Source of the DNA: Minwuia sp. | Lineage (GTDB): Bacteria; Pseudomonadota; Alphaproteobacteria; Minwuiales; Minwuiaceae | Assembly: GCA_029210175.1 (NCBI GenBank) | Contig: JARGPL010000007.1 | Location: 1-64,000, forward strand | Length of the DNA stretch: 64,000 bases | Reading direction: 5' to 3' | Shown here: piece by piece, positions 50,005 through 52,023 of the stretch | Layout: each line of letters starts with the position of its first letter | Numbering within the stretch: position 1 is the first letter of the stretch | Notes under the pieces: generated by a model | The model's input: only the letters and a program-made list of their open reading frames with translations | Databases searched by the model: none | Told to the model about the DNA's origin: nothing | Program-made: the position numbers and the translations under genes

Positions 50005-50067
50005 GCGAAGGGACGATAACGCCTCCCCGTCCGAAGGCAATGATGATGGTCAGCCAGAACGAAGCGA

Positions 50068-50673
50068 TCAGGTATTGTCGTTCAGCAGGTCAGACAGCCG
50101 CGACACGGCCAGTGCGGCCCGTTCCTGACAAGACTGCGGCGATGGCGCCGGAACCCGCCCGATGACACGGCGTATCTGCAGGTCCCCGACCAGCAGGTCC
50201 ATGTAGAGGGCGGCGGCGGCGGGTGTCTGTTCGAAGGCCAGTTGGCCCTTGCGCCGGGCGTTCTCGAGCACCCTGACGATCAGCGGCAGAACGGTTTCCC
50301 GTCCGGCCAGTGAAATGGCGGCGCCGAGTTCGCCGGAAGGGTCCGCCGCGGCGGCGCGGTTCAGGGCGATTGCACGGTCACCGAGCAACAGTGTCAGCAG
50401 TTTCGGCCCCAGTAACTGCAGGGTCGCGATCGGGTCCTCGTCCGAGGCAAGTTCAGCCTCCAGCAAGGCCTTGACTTCAGCCGCGTTGCGCGTGACCAGC
50501 GCCTTGAACAGGCCCTGCTTGTCACCGTACCAGTTGTACAATGTCTCGTTGGAGGCGCGCGCCTTTCGGGCGATGGCCAGCATCGAAGTTCCCGCATAGC
50601 CCTTCTGTTCCAGCAAGGCATAGGCAGCCGTCTCGATCTGCTGCTGGCGCAGTGACTTGTTTTCGTCGCGCAT
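50068..50673 (-). CDS. TetR-family transcriptional regulator
   Basis: The 201-aa protein has the TetR helix-turn-helix at residues 11-57 (QQQIETAAYALLEQKGYAGTSMLAIARKARASNETLYNWYGDKQGLFKALV) and a helical ligand domain, with an Arg-Arg-rich end. The ATG at 50673 begins the standard TetR start. A dyad ATCCGTAA-N6-TTACGATT lies 25 bases upstream, and a near-perfect copy lies at 51242, between chorismate mutase and a LysE exporter. It therefore most likely represses itself and that divergent pair. Confidence 0.88.
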   Translation of the reverse strand: MRDENKSLRQQQIETAAYALLEQKGYAGTSMLAIARKARASNETLYNWYGDKQGLFKALVTRNAAEVKALLEAELASDEDPIATLQLLGPKLLTLLLGDRAIALNRAAAADPSGELGAAISLAGRETVLPLIVRVLENARRKGQLAFEQTPAAAALYMDLLVGDLQIRRVIGRVPAPSPQSCQERAALAVSRLSDLLNDNT

Positions 50674-50697
50674 CCCTGGATCCTCGTTACAGGTCGC

Positions 50698-50719
50698 ATC
50701 CGTAACGAAAGTTACGATT
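50698..50719. promoter_or_regulatory. TetR operator site A (ATCCGTAA-N6-TTACGATT)
   Basis: The inverted arms are at 50698-50705 and 50712-50719, separated by CGAAAG; only the last two bases of the right arm deviate from perfect symmetry. It lies 25 bp before the TetR start codon. The same arms recur at 51242-51263, which makes a shared regulator likely. Confidence 0.65.
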
Positions 50720-50831
50720 TCTCGCAATGCGGGCCTGATGGCCACTGTCGGCAAGGCGCGAAGCCGCCGGCCAGATGCCGCCGTACCTGGCCCAGAGCCC
50801 GGCGCCGGCCATGCCAAACGGAATGGCAAGC

Positions 50832-51131
50832 CTATCCCAGATGTTTGATCTCGCGCTGGATCGACCATTCGATCAGTTCCGACCAGATGGTCACGGCCAG
50901 ATCCTCATCCAGGCCGACGGTCGTCGCTTTCGATTTCACATTGTCCAGCACTGCCGCCACACGGTCGACCGTTCTGGCCGGAAGACCTTCGATCCGCTTG
51001 AGATCGACTGCACGGTCGATGTAGCGGCTTCGCGTCGCAAGCAGGTCAAGCAGCATCGTGTCGATGGCATCGATCTGCTGGCGAAGCTCGGCCATGGATT
51101 CGCAGGCCGATGGTTCGGTGAGCTTGGTCAT
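50832..51131 (-). CDS. Chorismate mutase (AroQ type, short)
   Basis: The 99-aa all-helical protein has the AroQ pattern: MAELRQQIDAIDTMLLDLLATRSRYIDRAVDLKR (residues 13-46), with Arg and Glu/Asp positions of the first helix, and later VAAVLDNVKSKATTVGLDEDLAVTIWSELIEWSIQREI. It rearranges chorismate to prephenate for Phe and Tyr synthesis, or serves in PchB-like lyase reactions (isochorismate), which the sequence alone does not separate. The ATG at 51131 starts the domain. Its upstream region carries operator site B. Confidence 0.85.
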   Translation of the reverse strand: MTKLTEPSACESMAELRQQIDAIDTMLLDLLATRSRYIDRAVDLKRIEGLPARTVDRVAAVLDNVKSKATTVGLDEDLAVTIWSELIEWSIQREIKHLG

Positions 51132-51241
51132 GTTGCAATCCTCGGGTCTGAATTTCCGGGTCGGCTGACAGTCGGTGCTGGCGCGGCTTGTCCCGTTCTC
51201 TTCACCAACCACGGTCCCGGTGTCATTTCGCGATTGATCAT

Positions 51242-51263
51242 ATCCGTAACTTGCATTACGGAT
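51242..51263. promoter_or_regulatory. TetR operator site B (ATCCGTAA-N6-TTACGGAT), between chorismate mutase and LysE exporter
   Basis: The arms 51242-51249 and 51256-51263 are perfectly complementary over eight bases around CTTGCA. It is 111 bp before the chorismate mutase start (minus) and 94 bp before the LysE start (plus). A half site (CCGTAA, 51272-51277) follows. The match with site A at 50698 suggests control by the TetR gene at 50068. Confidence 0.7.
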
Positions 51264-51356
51264 ACATGCAACCGTAATCTCGAATACGCCTGAAGGAATT
51301 GCCATGAATCACGCCCACTGCCTGACATACGCTGCCCCGATGGGGGTGCTGAACTG

Positions 51357-51992
51357 ATGGATCTGTCCCTGCTGGCATTCTGCGTGGTGGTTCTTGTCAC
51401 TGTCGCGACACCGGGTCCGACTGTCCTGCTGGCGCTGACCAACGGGTCACGCTTCGGCCTTGCCCGTGCCTGGGCCGGGATCGCCGGTGCGGGCCTGTCC
51501 GACCTTGTCCTGATCACGGCGGCTGCGGCGGGGCTGGGCGCCATCCTTGCTACCTCGGCCTTCTGGTTTTCCGTGGTGAAATGGCTGGGCGTGGCCTACC
51601 TGGCCTGGATCGGTGTGCAGATGATCAGATCGGCGTCAGGCCCCGGCGACGCACCGGGGGGCGCGGCTGGCAAGCAAGGCGCGGGCGCACCGTCGCGCAT
51701 CTTCCGGAAGAGCTTCCTCGTGGCGATCACCAACCCCAAGGGCTACATCTTCTTCGCTGCCTTCCTGCCACAGTTCGTCGATCTGGCGCAGCCGCTTGCC
51801 GGGCAATACGTCACGCTGGCACTCATCTTCGTGCTGATCGACGTGGCCGTCATGACGGCCTATGCGATCGCCGGCGTGAACGCGATGCGGTTCCTGCGCG
51901 CCAGGGGCGCAATGTGGCTGGAGCGTTGTTGCGGTGCCGTCATGCTCACCCTGGCGGGTGGGCTGGCGCTCTACAAGGGCGCGCAGGTGTGA
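51357..51992 (+). CDS. LysE/RhtB-family amino acid exporter
   Basis: The 211-aa membrane protein has about six hydrophobic helices and the LysE-family N-terminal VVLVTVATPGPTVLLALTNGSRFGLARAWAGIAGAG (about residues 10-45), with the TPGP motif, and FRKSFLVAITNPKGYIFFAAFLPQF (about 118-142). These proteins export lysine, homoserine, threonine or similar compounds. Here it is divergent from chorismate mutase across TetR site B, so an aromatic compound or amino acid substrate is conceivable but unproved. Confidence 0.87.
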   Translation: MDLSLLAFCVVVLVTVATPGPTVLLALTNGSRFGLARAWAGIAGAGLSDLVLITAAAAGLGAILATSAFWFSVVKWLGVAYLAWIGVQMIRSASGPGDAPGGAAGKQGAGAPSRIFRKSFLVAITNPKGYIFFAAFLPQFVDLAQPLAGQYVTLALIFVLIDVAVMTAYAIAGVNAMRFLRARGAMWLERCCGAVMLTLAGGLALYKGAQV

Positions 51993-52023
51993 GCTTTCGC
52001 CGGAAGGTGAAAGCGCACGCGCA

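Follow-up and report, generated by a model that had tools for sequence, protein, structure and literature searches.

The region analysed is a 64-kb window (the whole stretch of DNA under study, on contig JARGPL010000007.1 of the 4.09-Mb Minwuia sp. genome, GCA_029210175.1), in which genes for a TetR-type regulator, a chorismate mutase and a LysE-family exporter are grouped around three palindromic candidate operators. The features are as follows:

50046..52019, no strand assigned: cassette of ~1.97 kb, delimited by blastn/tblastn against four congener loci (L112-L115) and by junction alignments; ends approximate
50068..50673, minus strand: TetR/AcrR-family repressor, 201 aa; Pfam TetR_N and TetR_C_7 (AefR-like); recognition helix SNETLYNWYGDK
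50698-50719, no strand assigned: candidate operator A, ATCCGTAACGAAAGTTACGATT, by pattern match; core CGTAACGAAAGTTACG at 50701-50716
50832..51131, minus strand: accessory AroQ-type chorismate mutase, 99 aa, TIGR01803-like; Pfam CM_2, E 2.4e-19
51234..51239, plus strand: -35-like TTGATC, aligned with a conserved TTGACA preceding O2 in relatives; TTGA invariant
51242-51263, no strand assigned: candidate operator B (O2 of relatives), ATCCGTAACTTGCATTACGGAT; core CGTAACTTGCATTACG at 51245-51260
51273-51288, no strand assigned: third candidate operator B2 (O1 of relatives), core CGTAATCTCGAATACG, 28 bp from B
51304..51357, plus strand: 17-codon ORF, MNHAHCLTYAAPMGVLN; its stop overlaps the LysE ATG
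51357..51992, plus strand: LysE/RhtB-family exporter, 211 aa; Pfam LysE, E 8e-31

Both TetR domains exceed their Pfam cut-offs (TetR_N 41.9 against 24 bits, TetR_C_7 39.8 against 22 bits), as does the exporter (PF01810, 107.5 against 25.6 bits). In keeping with the TetR family, a conserved palindromic candidate operator precedes both tetR itself and the divergent genes. The preliminary description of this DNA had placed one site before the TetR start and a second, as a perfect dyad, between the divergent mutase and exporter genes, and both were recovered. Site A, 22 bp long, is 24 nt distant from the tetR start codon (ATG at 50673), and its core lies 27 nt away, the same distance as that of the TetR-proximal operator (O2) in three related loci (L056, L057 and L070). 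Site B is an exact 8+8 dyad between the ATG codons of the mutase (51131) and LysE (51357). B2 is an additional site absent from that description.

A genome scan with the 22-bp pattern, proposed there as a check, returned A and B as the only exact matches (0 mismatches) across 4.09 Mb; within the window, five hits with up to three mismatches compare with 0.32 expected. The core CGTAM-N6-KTACG has four genomic occurrences, A and B plus the twin sites of a TetR paralogue encoded on contig C24, compared with 37 hits for the reversed-pattern control, and the three CGTA-N8-TACG sequences of the window are A, B and B2. Chance palindromes are ruled out as the origin of the sites by the counts in the window, genome-wide and among homologues (see below). 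A larger regulon is likewise ruled out at the level of the core motif, as two of the four genomic places belong to the paralogue, and 2- and 3-mismatch hits elsewhere in the genome are background (reversed-pattern control 20/14 versus 13/15). A consensus promoter scan of the control region found no consensus sigma-70 promoter. TTGATC aligns with the TTGACA before O2 in relatives, so that O2 would sit in or beside the promoter spacer.

TetR orthologues are found in Rhodobacterales (65-73% identical, with chorismate mutases at 66-72% and LysE at about 55-60%), and a tree groups the cassette TetR with this Rhodobacterales clade with moderate support; Minwuia otherwise carries just the ~50% identical TetR paralogue. 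In Tropicibacter (L057) and on the Ruegeria plasmid pTHAF33_b (L070), tetR and a mutase gene are divergent from genes for a 135-aa membrane protein, an anthrone oxygenase (PF08592) and LysE. Aestuarium (L071) has the same gene set without the mutase, which was not seen in several orthologous modules (L071 and L085-L087) and is therefore not essential to the system; more distant TetR homologues are paired with anthrone oxygenase alone. The control regions of five Rhodobacterales loci can be aligned with that of the cassette and share TTGA, O2 and O1 with it, and the 28-bp twin spacing is kept in 5/5 loci of the TetR-mutase/exporter type. Upstream of 23 TetR homologues, 42 perfect CGTA-N8-TACG sites were counted against 0.03 expected from shuffles. 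Two perfect sites are present in 19 of these 23 loci, 28 or 29 bp apart in 18 and 33 bp apart in L086; in L071 and L075 the second site deviates by one mismatch, and L088 has a single site. Loss of the sites from orthologous loci, which the preliminary description had considered damaging to its proposal, is thus not what is seen, as they are present there with the same 28-bp twin spacing and recur in the wider TetR family.

The layout of the Minwuia sp. locus differs from that of its relatives, where O1 and O2 separate tetR from the exporter operon. Here, the mutase gene occupies the place of tetR beside the twin sites, and tetR follows behind it with its own operator A, so that A alone lies upstream of tetR and the pair B/B2 precedes lysE and the mutase gene instead. 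The 135-aa protein and the anthrone oxygenase are missing from the cassette. The 17-codon ORF starts 15 nt past B2, compared with 16 nt for the membrane protein gene of L057 and L070, and it overlaps lysE in a TGATGG sequence resembling the oxygenase-LysE junction of relatives. This ORF is probably a remnant left by the deletion of a membrane-protein/anthrone-oxygenase pair.

The boundaries of the cassette are given by the congeners. In four of them (L112-L115), argE and aph directly adjoin and the cassette is absent; the Minwuia sp. sequence departs from theirs at ~50045 and returns at ~52020, and the inserted segment comprises precisely the three genes (tetR, lysE and that of the mutase) and the three sites. 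Neither a transposon nor repeats or a target-site duplication were seen at the cassette ends, and its GC content (~60-66%) matches the surroundings. The cassette was probably gained as a unit by horizontal acquisition. Its loss from the four congeners would be the less simple alternative, since it calls for repeated events, and we prefer the simpler gain in Minwuia sp.

From the uniqueness of the sites, their conservation and the cassette boundaries, we therefore conclude that the locus is most likely a self-contained autoregulated TetR regulon. The small regulon of TetR, mutase and exporter proposed in the preliminary description is supported, its sites being conserved in relatives and its genes forming one insertion cassette. 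We assign a probability of roughly 0.72 to the reading of this regulon as a ligand-released TetR module that is self-contained and was probably acquired horizontally. We infer from the sequence that TetR binds A, B and B2 and represses by binding. Without inducer, TetR dimers would occupy the twin operators B and B2 between the divergent lysE and mutase genes as well as the single operator A before tetR, keeping all three genes repressed. Binding of an inducer to the TetR_C_7 domain would release TetR, and the exporter and accessory mutase would be made together. A small aromatic or phenolic molecule might serve as the inducer; LysE would export it or help to remove it, joined in relatives by the anthrone-oxygenase-like membrane protein, and the mutase would adjust chorismate flux towards Phe/Tyr.

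As to the inducer, the nearest solved TetR structures include MexL, FrrA (with genistein or naringenin) and NalC, whose DNA binding is relieved by pentachlorophenol (PMC3290565). An aromatic inducer is plausible by analogy with these proteins. Its certainty is low because identities are 22-31% and the TetR structure model is just moderate (pLDDT 73.6, helix-turn-helix <50), which makes fold neighbours weak evidence for a ligand class. NalC, FrrA and MexL are the nearest to the cassette TetR by sequence and fold and are all tied to efflux genes, and NalC and FrrA respond to phenolics or flavonoids; their efflux genes are other ones (RND pumps, and armR for NalC).

The locus also invites comparison with the Tn10 system, in which an autoregulated TetR controls a divergent exporter gene, tetA, with two neighbouring operators between the divergent promoters. 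The cassette likewise has a predicted autoregulated TetR, a divergent exporter and two neighbouring candidate operators, but differs in operator sequence, TetR subfamily and spacing (28 bp), in the metabolic enzyme that shares the control, and in the position of tetR behind the mutase gene with the extra operator A. The system is thus of a conventional kind, TetR-controlled divergent expression.

The mutase is a CM_2 protein (69.7 against a cut-off of 27 bits) that keeps the catalytic Arg, Arg and Lys, and it scores 64.9 bits in TIGR01803, a CM-like subfamily with a cut-off of 73.35 bits that two orthologues pass (75.2 and 74.9). The position of EcCM Glu52 is Val in the Minwuia sp. protein and its orthologues. 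Glu is the AroQ consensus of efficient mutases here, and Val is found in PchB (Val55) and MtCM (PMC12329711). This makes high mutase activity less certain and leaves the fold family unaffected. The enzyme most likely forms prephenate, perhaps with weak activity. The enzyme is accessory, since the genome has another chorismate mutase, and a housekeeping role is excluded: all nine genomes of the family have another CM_2 protein, and the congeners live without the cassette one. The housekeeping enzyme lies at C24:375 kb within a CM-aminotransferase-TyrA cluster (C24:373-378 kb, L098) and has an extra C-terminal, PRK06034-like domain. In three Rhodobacterales-like genomes (L027, L028 and L059), genes for mutase relatives of 46-51% identity are neighbours of those for formate-tetrahydrofolate ligase and FolD, a setting in which a CM-like gene is part of a one-carbon folate cluster.

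What the mutase and the exporter do together allows several readings. The mutase could feed a pathway to prephenate or beyond, with LysE secreting an aromatic product and TetR sensing this product or a precursor. The two genes share the same candidate operators, in L057 and L070 tetR and the mutase gene stand next to each other and diverge from the exporter operon, and housekeeping falls to the other mutase. The cassette, however, holds no further biosynthetic gene, and orthologous modules without the mutase retain TetR and exporter or oxygenase, so that we regard secretion of a pathway product as rather doubtful. Making and secreting a metabolite is no more likely than the inducible export or detoxification of an aromatic compound, because relatives add the anthrone-oxygenase-like protein and the nearest characterised TetRs have phenolic or flavonoid ligands.

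A role in resistance to an antimetabolite such as an aromatic amino-acid analogue, which LysE would pump out while the extra mutase boosted Phe/Tyr so as to outcompete it, is an improbable alternative. LysE/RhtB transporters export amino acids and their analogues, and the predicted joint control of an exporter and a flux enzyme would suit this role; the cassette exporter, however, scores below every NCBIfam equivalog cut-off for a specific substrate (homoserine/threonine, leucine, lysine and arginine exporters).

The preliminary description had also allowed for isochorismate as substrate, in which case the enzyme would be an isochorismate pyruvate lyase making salicylate for export by LysE. 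PchB is indeed the closest solved structure, and in addition to the Val at the EcCM Glu52 position, Trp and Ile are found as in PchB at two neighbouring positions. Yet TrpE is the sole chorismate-binding enzyme in the genome, and the lack of an isochorismate synthase argues against this option. An isochorismate synthase above its family cut-off was found in 0/5 searched genomes carrying the mutase family, compared with 7/14 control genomes. The protein also scores 65.0 against a cut-off of 126 bits in the lyase family NF005475, it has Glu in place of PchB Gln90, as throughout the alphaproteobacterial clade sampled, and a nearby PchB Tyr is Ser, as in mutases. Salicylate formation is accordingly very improbable. 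With PchB and the AroQ chorismate mutases, the cassette enzyme shares the all-alpha CM_2 fold and the catalytic Arg, Arg and Lys; from PchB it differs in the Glu at the Gln90 position, in a longer loop with an EcCM-like Arg47 and in having no isochorismate supply.

Across the TetR homologues, recognition-helix residue 47 tracks letter 5 of the half-site: Asn47 goes with A in 27/34 half-sites and other residues go with C in 40/54, a correlation within few clades, with the Asn47/A pairing resting on one clade, that suggests a putative operator code. The paralogue on C24 (C24:18368-18961, 50% identical) is paired with a divergent anthrone-oxygenase (DUF1772) gene (C24:18368-19049, L094); its twin sites are CGTAC-N6-GTACG, 29 bp apart, and the gene pair with its sites is kept in four congeners. 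That the cassette sites serve another regulator such as this paralogue, with the cassette TetR acting elsewhere, is hardly credible: the paralogue is related and so are its sites, but these are of the CGTAC-N6-GTACG type, whereas Asn47 tracks the CGTAA type, and the cassette, being one insertion, carries sites that agree with those of its own orthologous loci. Pairs of TetR and anthrone oxygenase occur in Alphaproteobacteria, including the one on C24, and share with the cassette a homologous TetR, the divergent layout and twin CGTA-N8-TACG sites at 28-29 bp. They differ in their cargo, which is anthrone oxygenase instead of mutase and LysE, and the C24 paralogue in its CGTAC-type operators.

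Literature searches on TetR with DUF1772, AefR operators and Roseobacter chorismate mutase found nothing describing the module, and the gene combination and operator code appear undescribed in the literature searched. A further-reaching proposal is that the cassette is mobile and that its TetR, from a clade with its own operator code (Asn47, CGTAA half-sites), couples a non-housekeeping, CM-like PchB/mutase-hybrid enzyme to an exporter (in relatives also to an anthrone-oxygenase-like membrane protein), which would give an inducible route, so far undescribed, for handling an aromatic signal or toxin; this is speculative, and we put it forward tentatively. The cassette offers a bounded three-gene regulon testable with few experiments and a putative operator code (residue 47 versus half-site base 5, 28-bp twins) for an unstudied alphaproteobacterial TetR subfamily, and it draws attention to a CM-like enzyme outside housekeeping metabolism.

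Other genes are found beside this TetR family as well. On a Rhodovulum plasmid (L073, 2486-4587), TetR and the same twin sites are divergent from genes for a [2Fe-2S]/molybdopterin oxidoreductase. In L088 (756-4267), the genes after a TetR homologue encode an anthrone oxygenase, an FAD oxidoreductase weakly similar to tryptophan halogenases and a protein resembling acetoacetate decarboxylase, possibly an oxidative pathway under the same TetR family.
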